This document shows positions 4,079 to 41,956 of a stretch of 48,666 nt of DNA, one piece after another. The stretch is from a virus: the IMG/VR virus record IMGVR_UViG_3300034684_000139, positions 1 to 48,666 of that record; one strand, given 5' to 3'. Positions within the stretch are counted from its first letter, which is position 1, and each line of letters starts with the position of its first letter. The notes under the pieces were generated by a model. The model had not been told where the DNA came from and searched no databases. It saw nothing but the letters and a program-made list of their open reading frames with translations. Position numbers and translations under genes: made by a program.

Positions 4079-4852
4079 TTATTCTGTGATTGTGCCTTCC
4101 TTTATGTGGTACGCGATTCCATGATCTTCGCAGAAAGCAATCACGACCTGTGCTTGATCGTTATAAAACGCCTTATGCTTTGTATAGGCGGTGACTGCTT
4201 TGCTGTAGTTGGTGCGACCAAAAATTATTTTATCGGCAAACGAAACCGCAGTAAGAAGATCATTAATGTCCTGCTCCACGAGATTTGGCGTTGGGTACGG
4301 TTCTATGCTAATCCACGTGTTGCAACCAGCGTCGTGTAGTGCTCTCAATGCGGCAAGGCGGTTAGCATATGTGGCAGCACCCGGCTCCATTCTTGCTCGG
4401 AAGCCTTCATCGAGCGATACAAGTGTGATGCCATATTCGTTCTCGTGTGAAAGCTCCGCCAGTTCAATTGGTAGAATGCCTTTTGTTAGAATACTGCATT
4501 TGATTCCAGCAGCATTAAGTTTCTTTATTGCGTCTATGCTCATTTTATGGATTTCCGGATACTGATACATAAAAGGGTCTGTTGAAAAGCATAATTGAAT
4601 GGATTTGATTTTGCTCTTTAACCTTGGTATTTCCTTATCCAACAGTTCGAGGGTGTTAGAAACCAGATATGGTTCCAACCATTCATCGTAAGATTCAACC
4701 TGACCGAAACGTTTTTTCAGCATAAAGGCATAGCACGGATATTTGCAGCCGTGAGCACATCCTTGTATGTGGTTCATCGTATAATCGCCATACTCTACAC
4801 CGGTTTTATAGAGCATGGTTTTTCTTTCGATGTAGCCTTTAACCTTTTTCAT
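4079..4852 (-). CDS. Radical-SAM-like three-Cys protein (DUF5131 / phage Gp37-Gp68 family)
   Basis: A 257-residue protein with the cysteine motif C32-x3-C36-x3-C40 (GCAHGCKYPC), the spacing used by members of the phage Gp37/Gp68 (DUF5131) family that resemble spore photoproduct lyase-type radical SAM enzymes. Further family-like segments are CFSTDPFMYQYPE, the ILTKG strand and WISIEPYPTPNL near the end of the barrel. The cluster would bind 4Fe-4S and cleave S-adenosylmethionine; the substrate is unknown. The ATG overlaps the TcmP stop (ATGA-type overlap at 4849-4852), showing tight coupling. Proteins of this family are known to travel with the TcmP family, which is exactly the arrangement here. 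The family call is strong; a defence role is inferred from its neighbours. Confidence 0.8.
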   Translation of the reverse strand: MKKVKGYIERKTMLYKTGVEYGDYTMNHIQGCAHGCKYPCYAFMLKKRFGQVESYDEWLEPYLVSNTLELLDKEIPRLKSKIKSIQLCFSTDPFMYQYPEIHKMSIDAIKKLNAAGIKCSILTKGILPIELAELSHENEYGITLVSLDEGFRARMEPGAATYANRLAALRALHDAGCNTWISIEPYPTPNLVEQDINDLLTAVSFADKIIFGRTNYSKAVTAYTKHKAFYNDQAQVVIAFCEDHGIAYHIKEGTITE

Positions 4853-5970
4853 TCTGCAAATCCTCTACGAGCAAAACTCATTTTTCCTCGCGTCTCTTTA
4901 GCGGCATAGTTTTGCTTTAACTCTTTCTTTATTTGTGACTTGAAACCATCTGATGGAAAAATAGGATGCTCATCAAGAACTGCCCATAAATCATCGAGTG
5001 GAACATCGGTTAGTCCATTAAAACGATTTTGTAGATACTCTGCAATATCCTTTATGTAATAACAGAATTCGTCGGTCATCGTTTTGACGAACCCGTTTCC
5101 TTCAAAATCGAGCATAATCTGATTCTCACTACCGTGAGTATTTTTCGTTGATGACTTGCCACCGAAAGTCTGCCAAGCGGACTGCTTGTACAATTTGAAC
5201 CCTTTGATATTGCTTGTACAGTGGACCATGTTATATACAATGGCATTCTTCTTATTGAAAAACGGGAAAGCAGCAATATAATACTTGCGTATATCGTTCC
5301 TGCGGAGTGCCTTTATGATATCTTCAATGCGCTTCGCATATGCGGTTTTGTCGCTACCATAAGGTATAAGGTTTTCCAGCTCGGTAAGATATGTATGCTC
5401 GTACTTACTGCGGGCTTCGTCTTTCTTAACCATTTTTACAGCTCTTATTGAATCCGAAACCATATGGTTAAGAATGACCTCACTCCAATTATTAATAAAT
5501 GGCATAATGGCATTCCAGTCGATGGTAGCCTCATATGGATCATAAACAAGCAGATAATGCTTGTTGCTTGACATCGCTTGTCCTAACCGCTTTGCGAGAG
5601 AATTTCCGTCTTCTGTTGAGATGTGATAGTGAAAATTACCGCTTTCATTCGGCATTAAGCTCTTAAGATGGGCAGTCTTTGCAGCTGATAAATCACTGAA
5701 GTATAAATCGATTTGCTTGGCGAAATATTGGCCTGCAATATTACGCAGATATTTTGCTACGCGTACTGGTGTGCCGAATACCTGCTTACCATCATCATCA
5801 ACATACTCACCACTGTTGGACATGCAATCAATAAAAACGAGTCCGTTGCAGTACTGGTTCAAAAGAAGAATGTGTGCCCACGCCTCGACATACTTTTCTA
5901 TCAACTCAAACTTCTTTATTGTATGAGGATTTGCGTGGCTGATGATTTCCTCATTGCTCATTTCTTTCAT
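4849..5970 (-). CDS. tcmP: Three-Cys-motif partner protein, TcmP family
   Basis: A 373-residue protein. The N-terminal part (about 40-190) looks like a Rossmann-type methyltransferase fold: FIDCMSNSGEY as a glycine-loop-like segment, YFSDLSAAKT as the acidic second strand, and LLVYDPYEATIDW as a DPY-type motif, then a C-terminal winged-helix-like tail (LDEHPIFPSDGFK). The TcmP family is defined by co-occurrence with the three-Cys radical-SAM-like protein, which lies directly downstream with overlapping codons. Its start overlaps the end of the XRE gene; AGGAGG lies just before two possible ATGs (5970 and 5958), so the exact start is open. The chemistry is not established for the family; a pair that modifies nucleic acid or protein is plausible but inferred. 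Confidence 0.8.
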   Translation of the reverse strand: MKEMSNEEIISHANPHTIKKFELIEKYVEAWAHILLLNQYCNGLVFIDCMSNSGEYVDDDGKQVFGTPVRVAKYLRNIAGQYFAKQIDLYFSDLSAAKTAHLKSLMPNESGNFHYHISTEDGNSLAKRLGQAMSSNKHYLLVYDPYEATIDWNAIMPFINNWSEVILNHMVSDSIRAVKMVKKDEARSKYEHTYLTELENLIPYGSDKTAYAKRIEDIIKALRRNDIRKYYIAAFPFFNKKNAIVYNMVHCTSNIKGFKLYKQSAWQTFGGKSSTKNTHGSENQIMLDFEGNGFVKTMTDEFCYYIKDIAEYLQNRFNGLTDVPLDDLWAVLDEHPIFPSDGFKSQIKKELKQNYAAKETRGKMSFARRGFAE

Positions 5971-6368: not shown

Positions 6369-8306
6369 TTGGCAAAGTGTTATCGTTCATTCGCTGCCTA
6401 CATCGGAGATGTGTTATACGATGAAATTCACGGCAAACTGAAAAGTTATATCTATCAAAACAAAGACAGATTAAATCTATCTTCCTATAGTATTTCCGAT
6501 CCTTCTTACACCGCCTTGGATGATTTTCATGTAATGAGTGTGACCTTTCACGAATCCGATAACGACAGAATAGATTTTCAAGCAGCAATACAAGCAGACA
6601 TAGAAATCTCCGGTCGTTCCCGTCGAGATTATGACAGCGATATGATTGATCGCTGGTTTTCCGTTTTATGCTCTGCCACACTTCAAGATGGCCTTCATCA
6701 TTTTTGCATCAAGAACATTTTAGAATACTCGTGCGAACGGTTCAAAGCCGAAGACGCTCTTACCAAGTATCTGGTCCCGTATGTCTTTGCAAAGGACCTC
6801 GACAAACATGCTGAAAAGTTCCTTGAGAAATACTGCCCGCAGGCGTTAGAGGAACCAATGCCATTGCCCATCGACGAGATAATTGCCAAAATGGGATTGA
6901 CCGTTTTCTATGCTCCTCTGTCTGATGGGGTTTTCGGTCAGACTTACTTTAATACTGCAACCATCGATACATATTCGAGCCTTGAAAGCCGAGAAGTTCA
7001 ATCAACGGAAATTCAGGCCGGAACAATTCTGGTTAACCCGGATGTTGTATTCATGCGTAACATCGGTTCCCGAAATAACACTATCATCCACGAATGCGTC
7101 CATTGGGACAAGCACAGTAAGTTTTTTGAGCTACAGAAACTTCTCAACCCAGAGCACCAAGCAATATCGTGCGCCGTTGTTGAGGATTACCGAAAAAATC
7201 CAAATCAGCTGGAAGATGAACTTTCATGGATGGAATGGCAGGCAAATGCCATCGCACCAAGAATATTGATTCCTGAAAAGGCCGGTAAAGCAAAGCTCAG
7301 CTCAATCTTGACCAAACTCCGCAGGGGCTTTGGTAAAGGCCTCCGTGAAGGATATATTATGGAGCTTGCAATCAGTGAGTTTGCCGATTTCTTCAAGGTT
7401 TCTACCACGGCAGCTAAAATTCGTGCATTTGAACTAGGATTTGATCAAGCAGCCGGTGTATTTAACTTTGTTGACGGAGTTCATTATCCGCCATTCTCGT
7501 TTAAGAAAGGCTCACTAAAACGCAGTCAGACTTTTATCATCGACCGAAATAATGTAATCGTTGAGAGCTTCTTTAATGTGGATCTTATAGAAGATATCCG
7601 TTCCGGTCATTTTATTCATGCTGGTGGTATGGTCGTTATCAATGACCCGAAGTATGTCCAGAAGGAAGAAGGAAGCGAAGCAACCCTAACAGACTATGCC
7701 TTAGAGCATGTTGACGAGTGTTGCTTGGTATTTGACCGGAACACCAGAGTTAGTACCCACTATGACGACTCCTTCTATCGTATCTGTTTTCTCTGCCGAG
7801 ATGCTGATTCTAAAAGCTTCGTGGAAGCAAAGTATAACCCGAAGGAAGGCAAAAACGAGGATGTTGTAAAGCGTGCTCGTGAAATGGCAGCGATCTCTGA
7901 AGAAGCTAAGCGTGTGTCGGGTATTCTTGCCGATGTCCCTTCTTCGTTCAGTGGCACCCTTGATTATCATATTAACCGTAGAGGCTACACTAACGAAAAG
8001 ATGGAGGAGCGAACAGGGATCAGCGTAAGAATGATTCAGGACTATCGGAATAAAAAGGATGCTAAACCCACTCTGCAAAGTGTCCTCGCTCTTTGTATTG
8101 GCCTCAATCTTCACCCGGATTTTTGTTATGATCTTATAGACAAGGCTGGATATAACATTTTTATTGGGCGTGAAGAAAATATCATCTATCGCTATCTCAT
8201 CAATAATCACCACGTGGAAAACATCTATATGTGGAATGAAAAGCTTCGTGATGCCGGGATTCCTCAGCAATTACCCAGCAACGGGAATAAAAATACTGCA
8301 ATTTAA
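6369..8306 (+). CDS. Large ImmA/IrrE-type metallopeptidase with C-terminal HTH
   Basis: A 645-residue protein starting at TTG 6369 behind AAGGAGGG. The zinc protease motif is H241-E-C-V-H245 (in IIHECVHWDKH), followed by the family's MEWQANAIAPRILIP segment (about 286-300), where the glutamate is the likely third zinc ligand. Around 540-590 there is an XRE-like HTH (EERTGISVRMIQDYRNKKD) and a helical tail. In ICEBs1, ImmA cleaves the repressor ImmR; by analogy this protein may cleave or sense the divergent XRE regulator. It is much longer than ImmA (about 130-170 aa), with an extra N-terminal domain of roughly 180 residues and a long central region that I do not recognise. A strong hairpin terminator follows. 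Confidence 0.8.
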   Translation: MAKCYRSFAAYIGDVLYDEIHGKLKSYIYQNKDRLNLSSYSISDPSYTALDDFHVMSVTFHESDNDRIDFQAAIQADIEISGRSRRDYDSDMIDRWFSVLCSATLQDGLHHFCIKNILEYSCERFKAEDALTKYLVPYVFAKDLDKHAEKFLEKYCPQALEEPMPLPIDEIIAKMGLTVFYAPLSDGVFGQTYFNTATIDTYSSLESREVQSTEIQAGTILVNPDVVFMRNIGSRNNTIIHECVHWDKHSKFFELQKLLNPEHQAISCAVVEDYRKNPNQLEDELSWMEWQANAIAPRILIPEKAGKAKLSSILTKLRRGFGKGLREGYIMELAISEFADFFKVSTTAAKIRAFELGFDQAAGVFNFVDGVHYPPFSFKKGSLKRSQTFIIDRNNVIVESFFNVDLIEDIRSGHFIHAGGMVVINDPKYVQKEEGSEATLTDYALEHVDECCLVFDRNTRVSTHYDDSFYRICFLCRDADSKSFVEAKYNPKEGKNEDVVKRAREMAAISEEAKRVSGILADVPSSFSGTLDYHINRRGYTNEKMEERTGISVRMIQDYRNKKDAKPTLQSVLALCIGLNLHPDFCYDLIDKAGYNIFIGREENIIYRYLINNHHVENIYMWNEKLRDAGIPQQLPSNGNKNTAI

Positions 8307-8350: not shown

Positions 8351-8391
8351 AAGGCTCTTATGTCGTTTCGACATGAGGGCCTTATTTTTTT
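8351..8391 (+). terminator. Rho-independent terminator after the metallopeptidase gene
   Basis: AAGGCTCTTATGTCG pairs with the imperfect complement GACATGAGGGCCTT around a TTTC loop, followed by an A/T stretch ending in seven Ts. It closes the defence region and separates it from the prophage. Confidence 0.85.
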
Positions 8392-8475
8392 GCCCGTTTT
8401 ACAGGCTTTTTGCGTTTTCGAACCGGAAGTCGCACTTCCTCGTGTAATTCAAGTTTTTCAATAAAATAGTACATG
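8392..8475 (+). promoter_or_regulatory. AT-rich spacer with a possible weak promoter for the early prophage operon
   Basis: After the terminator there is a stretch with no gene. A TAAAAT-like -10 near 8463-8468 precedes the structured leader, but the matching -35 region is poor. The prophage left attachment site could lie here; I could not identify it. Confidence 0.25.
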
Positions 8476-8693
8476 TGAGCTGGTGCTCATGCCATCAAGC
8501 GGTACATCCGCAGGCCTCGGATGATCCAGTGCTGCTTGACGGGACAAGTAAATAAGAACAGCTGCCTACTGGATAAGGAAGCTGCAGCCGGAACGGAGAA
8601 TATCTCCGTCAGGACTGCGGTAGGTATCCTATTGCCTTTTTGCAGCTGACCATGACTTTTCCTCCGTTCCAGGAAATCAACGGAGGAAATTTT
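8476..8693 (+). ncRNA. Structured leader RNA with a Shine-Dalgarno switch ahead of the sigma-like gene
   Basis: About 215 bases without a gene but dense in helices: CAAGC (8496-8500)/GCTTG (8534-8538) enclosing ATCCG (8506-8510)/CGGAT (8518-8522); CAGCTGC (8559-8565)/GCAGCTG (8642-8648) enclosing the perfect hairpin ACGGAGA (8593-8599)/TCTCCGT (8603-8609); and CCTCCGTT (8661-8668)/AACGGAGG (8679-8686), which buries the ribosome site of the next gene. A competing perfect 9-bp helix, GGAACGGAG (8590-8598) with CTCCGTTCC (8662-8670), would break both smaller hairpins and free the ribosome site. This is the architecture of a cis-acting translational switch. The ligand or trigger is unknown. Confidence 0.65.
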
Positions 8694-9221
8694 ATGAACA
8701 GTAATGACAAGCAGTACAAAATCTACATCCGCAGCACCAAACAGTGGGTGCCCGTAACCGAAGAAATCTATCTCACCTATTACCGACCCGTATGGCGTAA
8801 ACAGAAGGCCGCACAAAAAGCCGGTCAGTGCATCTGTCCGAAGAACAAGCTCTGGATATGCGACGGCGATTGCGCTATGTGCGAATACCACGCAGCCGGA
8901 AACACTATTTCACTCGATGCGCCGATGGAAAACGCAGCCGGTGAGGATTTCTGCCTCTTGGATACTCTTGAGGACAAGGACAGCAGCTTTGCCGACGTCC
9001 TTGTGGACAGGCTTCTGCTTGAACAGCTTCTCGACGAGCTTGCGGAGTGTGACCCCGAAGGTAAACGTATCTGTGAACTCATCATGGAGGGTAGCTCCAA
9101 GACGGAAATCGCGGATACCCTTCAGCGCGAGTTCGGTGGCGACTGGTACAAGTCAAAAGCCGTTTATCGTGAAAAGCAGGTGCTCGACCAGCTTCGCAAA
9201 CGCATATTAGGTTTCAAGTAA
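8694..9221 (+). CDS. Sigma-70-like (region 4) protein of the early phage operon
   Basis: A 175-residue protein. The first third has a short cysteine cluster (CICPKNKLWICDGDCAMC, residues about 45-62) that could bind metal. The C-terminal half (about 100-170) resembles sigma region 4: LLLEQLLDELAE, then MEGSSKTEIADTLQREFGGDW with the HTH, then basic YREKQVLDQLRKRI. Such proteins are commonly labelled sigma-70 family in clostridial mobile elements and may direct RNA polymerase to element promoters or act as a DNA-binding regulator. The ATG follows GGAGG, which is held in a perfect 8-bp stem, so its translation is probably regulated. A terminator follows at once, isolating it from the DUF2800 operon. 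Confidence 0.7.
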   Translation: MNSNDKQYKIYIRSTKQWVPVTEEIYLTYYRPVWRKQKAAQKAGQCICPKNKLWICDGDCAMCEYHAAGNTISLDAPMENAAGEDFCLLDTLEDKDSSFADVLVDRLLLEQLLDELAECDPEGKRICELIMEGSSKTEIADTLQREFGGDWYKSKAVYREKQVLDQLRKRILGFK

Positions 9222-9601: not shown

Positions 9602-9839
9602 CTGGCTGGCGGAGCAATTTAGCGGTGATGAAGCACCGGAAGCGCCCACACCCGTGAAAGAACCACCGCTCACGTTGGAAGCGGTCAGAGCCGTCCTTGC
9701 GAATAAGTCCCGTGCGGGCTATACCGCTCAGATTCGCTCTCTGCTCCAGAAGTACGGTGCCGACAAGCTGTCGGGCGTTGACCCCGCTAATTACAAGGCG
9801 CTGCTTGCCGATGCGGAGGAACTGAACAATGCCACCTAA
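9504..9839 (+). CDS. Small acidic phage protein upstream of DUF2800, unknown function
   Basis: A 111-residue protein with GGAG nine bases ahead of its ATG. An N-terminal helical segment (IEELRNVCNELEQVR) is followed by a Pro/Glu-rich linker (about 46-62) and a C-terminal helical domain (LEAVRAVLANKSRAGYTAQI ... LLQKYGADKLSGV). The C-terminal pattern resembles the rRNA-biogenesis Rrp5-like label often given to phage proteins in this position, without proven function. It overlaps DUF2800 by 11 bases, so the two are translationally coupled. Confidence 0.75.
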   Translation: MSNMSEMASTIEELRNVCNELEQVRTVISDAANWLAEQFSGDEAPEAPTPVKEPPLTLEAVRAVLANKSRAGYTAQIRSLLQKYGADKLSGVDPANYKALLADAEELNNAT

Positions 9840-10968
9840 AGGACACGCAGTACTATCTGCATCATCTTCTGAGCGCTGGCTTCACTGTCCTCCCTCCGCT
9901 CGGCTCTGCGAGAGCTATGAGGATAAAGGCTCGGACTACGCCGCTGAAGGCACCGATGCTCACGAGCTTTGTGAATATAAGCTCCGCAAAGCGCTGGGTA
10001 TGGAAGCACAGGACCCAACTGAAAACCTTACATGGTTCAACGAAGAAATGTCGGACTGTGCCAATGGTTATGCTGCCTATGTTCTTGAACAGATGGAAGC
10101 CGCAAAGCAGACCTGCGCTGACCCCGTCGTCTTGATTGAACAGCGCGTAGACTTTTCCCGCTGGGTTGAGTCAGGCTACGGCACCGCCGACTGCATCATT
10201 ATCGCGGACGGCACCTTGCAGATCATTGACTACAAGCATGGGTTGGGCGTGCTCGTAAGCGCAGAGGAAAACCCGCAGATGCAGTGTTACGCACTCGGTG
10301 CACTGGAGCTTTTCGACTACATTTACGACATCGACTCGGTGCGCATGACCATCTACCAGCCCCGCCGCGACAATGTCAGCACCTACGAAATCTCAAAGGA
10401 CGAGCTCTACCGCTGGGCGGACGAAGTGCTCAAGCCCACAGCCGACCTTGCTTTCGCCGGTGATGGTAACTTCCTCTGCGGGGAATGGTGCGGCTTTTGC
10501 AAGGCAAAGCACGATTGCCGAGCCAGAGCCGACGCCAACATGGAGCTTGCCCGCTATGACTTTAAGCTGCCTCCTCTGCTGACAGATGAGGAGGTCGAAA
10601 AAATTATCTCCCGTGTTGATGACCTTGTCGCATGGGCATCGGATATCAAGGACTACGCACTGCAACAGGCTATCAGCGGTAAGGAATGGAACGGCTGGAA
10701 ACTGGTCGAAGGTCGCTCCAACCGCAAATACACAAACGAAACAGCAGTCGCCGGTGCTGTCACCGACGCTGGCTTTGACCCTTACGAGCGCAAGGTGCTC
10801 GGTGTCACCGCCATGCAGAAGCTGCTCGGCAAATCCCGCTTTGAAGAACTCCTCGCGGCGCATATCGAAAAACCGCAGGGTAAACCCACGCTCGTCCCGG
10901 AGAGTGATAAGCGTCCGGCGATGAACACAGCCAAGAATGATTTTATGGAGGAAAACGATTATGAATAA
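9829..10968 (+). CDS. DUF2800 protein, Cas4/RecB-like nuclease fold
   Basis: A 379-residue protein. The start MPPKGHAVLSASSSERWLHC is typical of DUF2800, as is GTADCIIIADG...IIDYKHG (about 120-140), which supplies the D ... D-Y-K pattern of PD-(D/E)xK nucleases. A cysteine set, CGEWCGFCKAKHDC (about 218-231), together with the early SERWLHCPPS cysteine, matches the 4Fe-4S cluster of Cas4/AddB-like enzymes. In phages it stands beside the DUF2815 protein and the polymerase, suggesting exonuclease activity in recombination or replication. It overlaps the start of DUF2815 by 8 bases. Family call strong; exact activity inferred. Confidence 0.88.
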   Translation: MPPKGHAVLSASSSERWLHCPPSARLCESYEDKGSDYAAEGTDAHELCEYKLRKALGMEAQDPTENLTWFNEEMSDCANGYAAYVLEQMEAAKQTCADPVVLIEQRVDFSRWVESGYGTADCIIIADGTLQIIDYKHGLGVLVSAEENPQMQCYALGALELFDYIYDIDSVRMTIYQPRRDNVSTYEISKDELYRWADEVLKPTADLAFAGDGNFLCGEWCGFCKAKHDCRARADANMELARYDFKLPPLLTDEEVEKIISRVDDLVAWASDIKDYALQQAISGKEWNGWKLVEGRSNRKYTNETAVAGAVTDAGFDPYERKVLGVTAMQKLLGKSRFEELLAAHIEKPQGKPTLVPESDKRPAMNTAKNDFMEENDYE

Positions 10969-41533: not shown

Positions 41534-41956
41534 ATGACAAATGAGCAAAGAGAACACATCACTACCATGCGACTGGGCGGCATCGGCTATACAGCCATTG
41601 CTAAAGCGGTCGGGCTGTCAAAGGACAGCGTGAAGGCCTATTGCCGCACTCATGGCCTTGCCGGGATAAAAGCACAAAGCAATACTCGAATCTCACCGAC
41701 GCAAAGATTTTGCTTGAATTGTGGAAAGTCGCTGGTACAGCTACCGCATCGGAAAGCTGCGAAGTTCTGCTGTGGCGAATGCCGTCAGGTATGGTGGAAT
41801 GCGCACCCAGAGCAGGTCAATAAAAAGGCATTCTACTCCTTCACCTGCGTTTGCTGTGGTAAGCCCTTTACAGCATACGGCAATTCGTCACGAAAATATT
41901 GTTCTCATGATTGTTATATTGCAGATCGTTTCAAAGGCGGTGAGCAGCATGACTGA
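41534..41956 (+). CDS. HTH protein with two zinc ribbons, beside the recombinases
   Basis: A 140-residue protein starting at ATG 41534. The N-terminal HTH (REHITTMRLGGIGYTAIAKA, VGLSKDSVKAYCRTHGL) resembles resolvase or sigma region 4-type HTH. Two zinc ribbons follow: CLNCGKSL...CCGECR and CVCCGKPF...YCSHDC, the same design as the four ribbons of the HNH protein at 20684. Its place before the recombinases and under leader element 3 suggests a regulator or directionality factor for integration and excision; this is inference. Confidence 0.75.
   Translation: MTNEQREHITTMRLGGIGYTAIAKAVGLSKDSVKAYCRTHGLAGIKAQSNTRISPTQRFCLNCGKSLVQLPHRKAAKFCCGECRQVWWNAHPEQVNKKAFYSFTCVCCGKPFTAYGNSSRKYCSHDCYIADRFKGGEQHD

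Follow-up and report, generated by a model that had tools for sequence, protein, structure and literature searches.

The early-operon leader RNA of a gut-type phage contains a strand that can enter either of two mutually exclusive helices, one burying the Shine-Dalgarno (SD) site of a sigma-like gene and the other predicted to leave it free. Judged by sequence comparison, both pairings are conserved, with the SD lying within one of them. The 5′ part of this leader is DUF2800 RNA (Rfam RF02960), a family already on record that is still a functional orphan. We consider it likely that the whole acts as a translation gate, set during transcription, with which the Candidatus Heliusvirales early operon opens. 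Leaders with mutually exclusive SD helices are of a known kind, and the 5′ RNA is known too; the output part appears to be new on the checks made here.

On this reading an Rfam family without a function would acquire a mechanism open to test, together with a defined output part, and would do so in phages from a group that is widespread in the gut (PMC9226167). Since the gene behind the proposed gate is the first of the replication region and encodes a sigma-like regulator, lytic growth could be decided at this point.

The four segments and the SD

The source is a virus contig of 48,666 bases, the whole of which is termed the window; positions are those of the window, on its plus strand except where marked. 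Segment 1 (AACGGAGA, 8592–8599, with its pairing stretch beginning at 8590) has two alternative partners: with the SD hidden, 8593–8599 pairs with segment 2 (TCTCCGT, 8603–8609), the 3′ arm of the 1-2 hairpin, and with the SD free, 8590–8598 pairs with segment 3. Segment 3 (CCTCCGTT, 8661–8668, within the pairing stretch 8658–8670) also has two, 8658–8668 pairing with segment 4 and 8662–8670 with segment 1. Segment 4 (AACGGAGG, 8679–8686, pairing on to 8689) carries the SD, GGAGG, at 8682–8686.

On reading the sequence, the four segments, the outer helix and the SD all lie where an earlier note on this DNA had put them, and the 9-bp helix that it gave between segments 1 and 3 is there too. The note was also right that pairing of 3 with 4 buries the SD in a perfect stem, for which it gave 8 bp; the stem has 11 bp, uninterrupted (8658–8668 with 8679–8689; −14.7 kcal/mol at 37°C). 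The leader stretch folds to −59.3 kcal/mol, against −35.9 ± 4.2 kcal/mol for its shuffles (z = −5.65, 0/200), and the 1-3 complementarity of the window was matched by 0/300 shuffles of the upstream region. The observation is confirmed as real and beyond chance.

The 5′ part of the leader is DUF2800 RNA

The 5′ part of the leader, 1-2 hairpin included, is a member of a known family because RF02960 matches 8492–8652 over the whole model, positions 1–158, with 122.9 bits (E = 1.5e-21), above the curated gathering cut-off of 60.2. A DUF2800 gene begins at 9829, downstream of the leader and past the sigma-like gene. With all helices counted, 92.8% of cells in the family alignment are paired and 29 pairs show two-sided changes, a result reached in 0/500 shuffles. 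DUF2800 RNA is an orphan cis-regulatory candidate, and the novelty that the earlier note implied for the leader does not extend to this part, which the Rfam search it had proposed finds already described.

The Rfam structure, which is the same in the window, consists of P1, P2, P3 and the 1-2 hairpin. P1 is a long 5′ hairpin (8492–8542) with two-sided changes at 14 of its 17 pairs among 28 sequences. The outer helix P2 joins CAGCTGC (8559–8565) to GCAGCTG (8642–8648), the inner helix P3 joins 8581–8587 to 8615–8621, and immediately before the 3′ arm of P2 comes a conserved U-run (8637–8641), only weakly terminator-like in the window. The alignment of relatives also shows a conserved A-rich linker, ACAAGTAAATAA (8544–8555). 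An extra hairpin, GTGAGC TGGT GCTCAT (8475–8490), lies just 5′ of the Rfam model, and hairpins at the equivalent site can be read by eye in the leaders of relatives. Whereas the structure line printed for RF02960 has no pseudoknot, the window leader has a covarying one, AUCCAG/CUGGAU, formed by 8524–8529 and 8569–8574, with 98.8% of cells paired and two-sided changes in all six of its pairs.

The compact fold proposed earlier, starting at 8559, holds for its outer CAGCTGC/GCAGCTG helix and the helix nested in it; it overlooked the pseudoknot and placed the leader's start too far downstream, the Rfam match running from 8492. At the other end the model stops at 8652, so that segments 3 and 4, and hence the switch and the ribosome site, are beyond it. 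Within the reach of the present checks, neither the output part nor the alternative pairing has an earlier description.

Covariation of the alternative pairings

Leaders were gathered via the sigma-like protein, via RF02960 and via DNA patterns, and 64 distinct leaders of sigma-like genes form the compared set. RF02960 was found above its cut-off in 4/391 genomes of one class; a DNA-pattern scan of genome contigs, like a scan of viral contigs for the CGGATGATCCAGTGC pattern, yielded mostly chance matches. The core DUF2800 alignment holds 28 leaders aligned with MAFFT. Because MAFFT misaligned segment 1 in two of them (L039, L044), the segments were also extracted by sequence anchors, which gave 36 distinct DUF2800 leaders from all loci, with 22 segment combinations.

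In the 28-leader alignment 95.6% of cells of the 1-3 helix can pair and three pairs show two-sided changes; the covariation score was reached by no shuffle and collapsed when the partner was slid by 1–3 columns. In the anchor-extracted set 192/198 cells are Watson-Crick and two more are G-U, against a mean of 170.9 and a maximum of 182 in 5000 permutations, a comparison that is not a probability since permutation keeps relatedness. The two-sided changes are G-C/A-U, C-G/U-A and G-C/A-U at three positions, the second of which has changed in several backgrounds (L039/L043 and L044, L058, L067) and also in other leader classes (L127, L068, L131). That such columns are few is due to the SD complement, which constrains the remaining ones.

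Over the same 22 combinations the 3-4 pairing is Watson-Crick in 160/198 cells, and segments 1 and 4 are identical in 161/198. Both figures are below 192, so segment 1 is kept as a complement of segment 3, not as a copy of segment 4. Segments 1 and 3 have changed together in L021/L038 (CGGAACGAAG with CTTCGTTCCG), where segment 4 is still AACGGAGG; wherever segment 4 diverges (L021/L038, L091, L106, L281), segment 1 tracks segment 3. The check for covariation among homologues that the earlier note had called for thus finds it in all three pairings, 1-2, 1-3 and 3-4, and the mutually exclusive SD-hiding and SD-freeing helices proposed there are supported, the more so as the arrangement is re-created in unrelated leaders of the sigma-like gene family.

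Leaders outside the core family

An SD-covering helix with a score of at least 18 occurs in 73% of 63 sigma-like leaders and in 5% of the 228 genes taken from those loci as controls, where two of the high-scoring controls are in fact DUF2800 leaders missed by the protein search (L065, L067). Among the controls, the window gene starting at 41534 (plus strand) has a strong SD-covering helix, of score 22.

The loci L002–L011 encode sigma-like proteins 78–87% identical to that of the window, and their leaders, save those of L005 and L006, are without an RF02960 match. The leaders examined all carry the SD hairpin, mostly together with a segment 1, and their 1-3 pairs differ in sequence: GAAGCGGAG with CTCCGCTTC in L002–L004, CGAAACGGAG with CTCCGTTTCG in L007, and ATCCGCCAG with CTGGCGGAT in L009/L010. 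The unrelated leaders of these proteins have only the output part in common. Leader modules have here been swapped wholesale, and such exchange of input modules before nearly identical proteins offers a ready-made set in which to look for the signals that they sense. Conversely, the DUF2800 leader is followed by a sigma-like gene in nearly all loci, and some of these sigma-like proteins are very divergent.

Beyond the core, a significant segment 1 (p ≤ 0.02 each) was found in 10 of 25 representatives of leader classes, where 0.5 would be expected; some of the 25, L068, L080, L082 and L084 among them, are themselves related to RF02960, weakly or as divergent members. The rest of the classes have no significant segment 1, which is therefore frequent and not universal, and some leaders (e.g. 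L014, L046, L059, L107) have the SD hairpin with no significant segment 1.

In many leaders hairpins resembling intrinsic terminators lie ∼45–75 nt before the start codon (L007, L009, L014, L051, L074, L082, L084, L124, L128, L129 and L136), and L073 has one too; each comes with a U-run, shortly before the SD hairpin of the sigma-like gene. In a separate group of loci, from bacterial genomes (L107–L121, L123), distant sigma-like genes that barely differ from one another recur across many genomes of a single family. All of them have a long hairpin close to the SD and, ∼105–120 nt upstream, another that resembles a terminator; these loci are possibly mobile elements.

Energetics and the proposed gate

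Fold energies were computed with the pseudoknot left out of the model. For the full-length RNA they favour the hidden-SD fold by 10.7–23.7 kcal/mol in 28/28 leaders. If the transcript is cut off directly behind segment 3, no more than 3 kcal/mol separates the 1-3 fold from the energy minimum in 24/28, and before segment 4 is made the 1-3 and 1-2 pairings are near balance. On these fold energies it appears unlikely that a ligand switches the RNA between the 1-3 and 3-4 folds at equilibrium, and a choice made during transcription would be the natural reading.

The gate that we favour would work as follows. The early-operon mRNA would begin with DUF2800 RNA as a pseudoknotted input domain, holding segment 1 in an apical hairpin. 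With the domain normally folded and 1-2 paired, 3-4 would pair and bury the ribosome site of the sigma-like gene, as the stable end state. Should the apical hairpin be held open, or lose the race, while segment 3 has been made and segment 4 has not, segment 1 would capture segment 3, the SD would emerge free and ribosomes could load. The 1-3 fold would then be the translation-competent ON state in the cell, with the choice between folds falling co-transcriptionally, before segment 4 exists. We infer that the DUF2800 domain biases this choice by keeping or freeing segment 1, and that some factor, be it protein, small molecule or transcription machinery, tips it. Given the large gap at full length, 1-3 may instead be just a brief folding intermediate of no regulatory use.

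A broader scheme, which we put forward tentatively and think rather unlikely, is that of double locks across these phages: DUF2800 RNA would be one of several exchangeable inputs, the hairpin holding segment 1 would often be a terminator, segment 1 would free the SD solely in transcripts where this hairpin had failed to form, and only antiterminated transcripts would be translated. Segment 1 lies within a terminator-like hairpin in L007, L051, L073 and L082, and L051, L073, L082 and L084 have stronger terminator-like hairpins than the U-run site of the window. DUF2800 RNAs have a U-run at the equivalent place, with a closing stem of only 4 bp and an internal loop, and for this reason we do not claim termination there; if it did occur, opening of the SD would be tied to antitermination.

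Alternative explanations

The near-balance of the truncated transcript and the overwhelmingly hidden SD at full length would also suit a pure kinetic timer working without a ligand, in which 1-3 delays the SD hairpin and only fresh mRNA is translated before shutting itself off. There is precedent in the MS2 leader, which permits translation while still in a transient structure, ahead of the stable fold (PMC6733600). Timing alone would not need a conserved, pseudoknotted domain of 150 nt, however, and would leave conserved unpaired letters such as those of the A-rich linker unexplained; we regard the timer as possible and doubt it. The likeness of segments 1 and 4 in the core family (161/198 identical cells) suggests another reading, that a single protein-binding hairpin is present twice, as 1-2 and as 3-4, with a repressor sitting on both and 1-3 a by-product. 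This mimicry was rejected on the greater complementarity of segment 1 to segment 3 (192/198), which it follows where segment 4 changes; moreover, the hairpins that contain segment 1 in L009, L073, L133 and L051 are of quite different shape, and it still matches segment 3 there. Twin protein-binding hairpins are accordingly improbable.

The regular position of sigma-like genes behind the leader in nearly all loci could point to autogenous control, with the sigma-like protein binding its own leader. That is quite improbable, because near-identical proteins (78–87%) carry unrelated input modules, and the same DUF2800 leader stands before very divergent proteins. The SD-hiding hairpin by itself is what an RNA thermometer, one of the options named in the earlier note, or a ribosome-stalling leader peptide would have, and both are scarcely credible here. 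A thermometer was discarded because its SD helix should be imperfect and the one found is an uninterrupted stem of 11 bp at −14.7 kcal/mol. A leader peptide is disfavoured because a search of the 28 leaders for a shared leader ORF with its own SD found none (0 conserved).

Comparison with known systems

In translational riboswitches an input domain and a shared strand govern two mutually exclusive helices, one hiding the SD and the other freeing it. The window leader has an equivalent layout; it differs in that its input domain is swapped wholesale among close relatives and a ligand is only hypothetical. Translational attenuators of the erm type use four segments, with 1-2 and 3-4 paired or, alternatively, 2-3, under control of a leader peptide. 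The four-segment logic is found here too, whereas the alternative is 1-3 and not 2-3, and a conserved leader peptide is absent from the 28 leaders. In the MS2 leader and hok mRNA a transient structure times the opening or closing of the ribosome site relative to a more stable fold (PMC6733600). The likeness is that a metastable fold would govern access to the ribosome site here too; there is no homology, and here the transient partner lies inside a large conserved domain.

Operon context and phage group

A strong intrinsic terminator (8351–8383), with a 15-pair stem followed by ATTTTTTTGC, sets the leader apart from the upstream gene; no sigma-70 promoter was recognised. The sigma-like gene (8694–9221, ATG at 8694) encodes 175 amino acids and belongs to phrog_13787. 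Its product has weak similarity to sigma-70 region 4 in the C-terminal half and a weak structure model (pLDDT 55), whose best neighbours in the PDB are sigma factors, none of them significant. The DUF2800 gene (9829–10968; PD-(D/E)XK exonuclease-like) and replication genes come next in order, and this context agrees with the earlier placing of the leader at the head of the early operon.

Nine genes are common to all Ca. Heliusviridae (PMC9226167). Eight of the nine were recognised in the window, the Clp protease being outside the comparison: DUF2800, DUF2815 (Enc34 ssDNA-binding), DNA polymerase A, an endonuclease (phrog_93), SNF2 helicase, terminase, portal and major capsid protein. Relatives of the sigma-like protein are encoded in eight annotated phage records, each of them classed as Ca. 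Heliusvirales.

Two further features flank the early region on its upstream side. Just upstream of the leader, 6369–8306 (plus strand) encodes a 645-aa protein of phrog_4031, perhaps an ImmA/IrrE-type regulator; it matches a metallo-protease weakly, contains an HExxH-like motif and has an apparent C-terminal helix-turn-helix. Upstream of the early region, 4079–5970 on the minus strand encodes a radical-SAM-like protein beside the three-Cys-motif partner protein TcmP.
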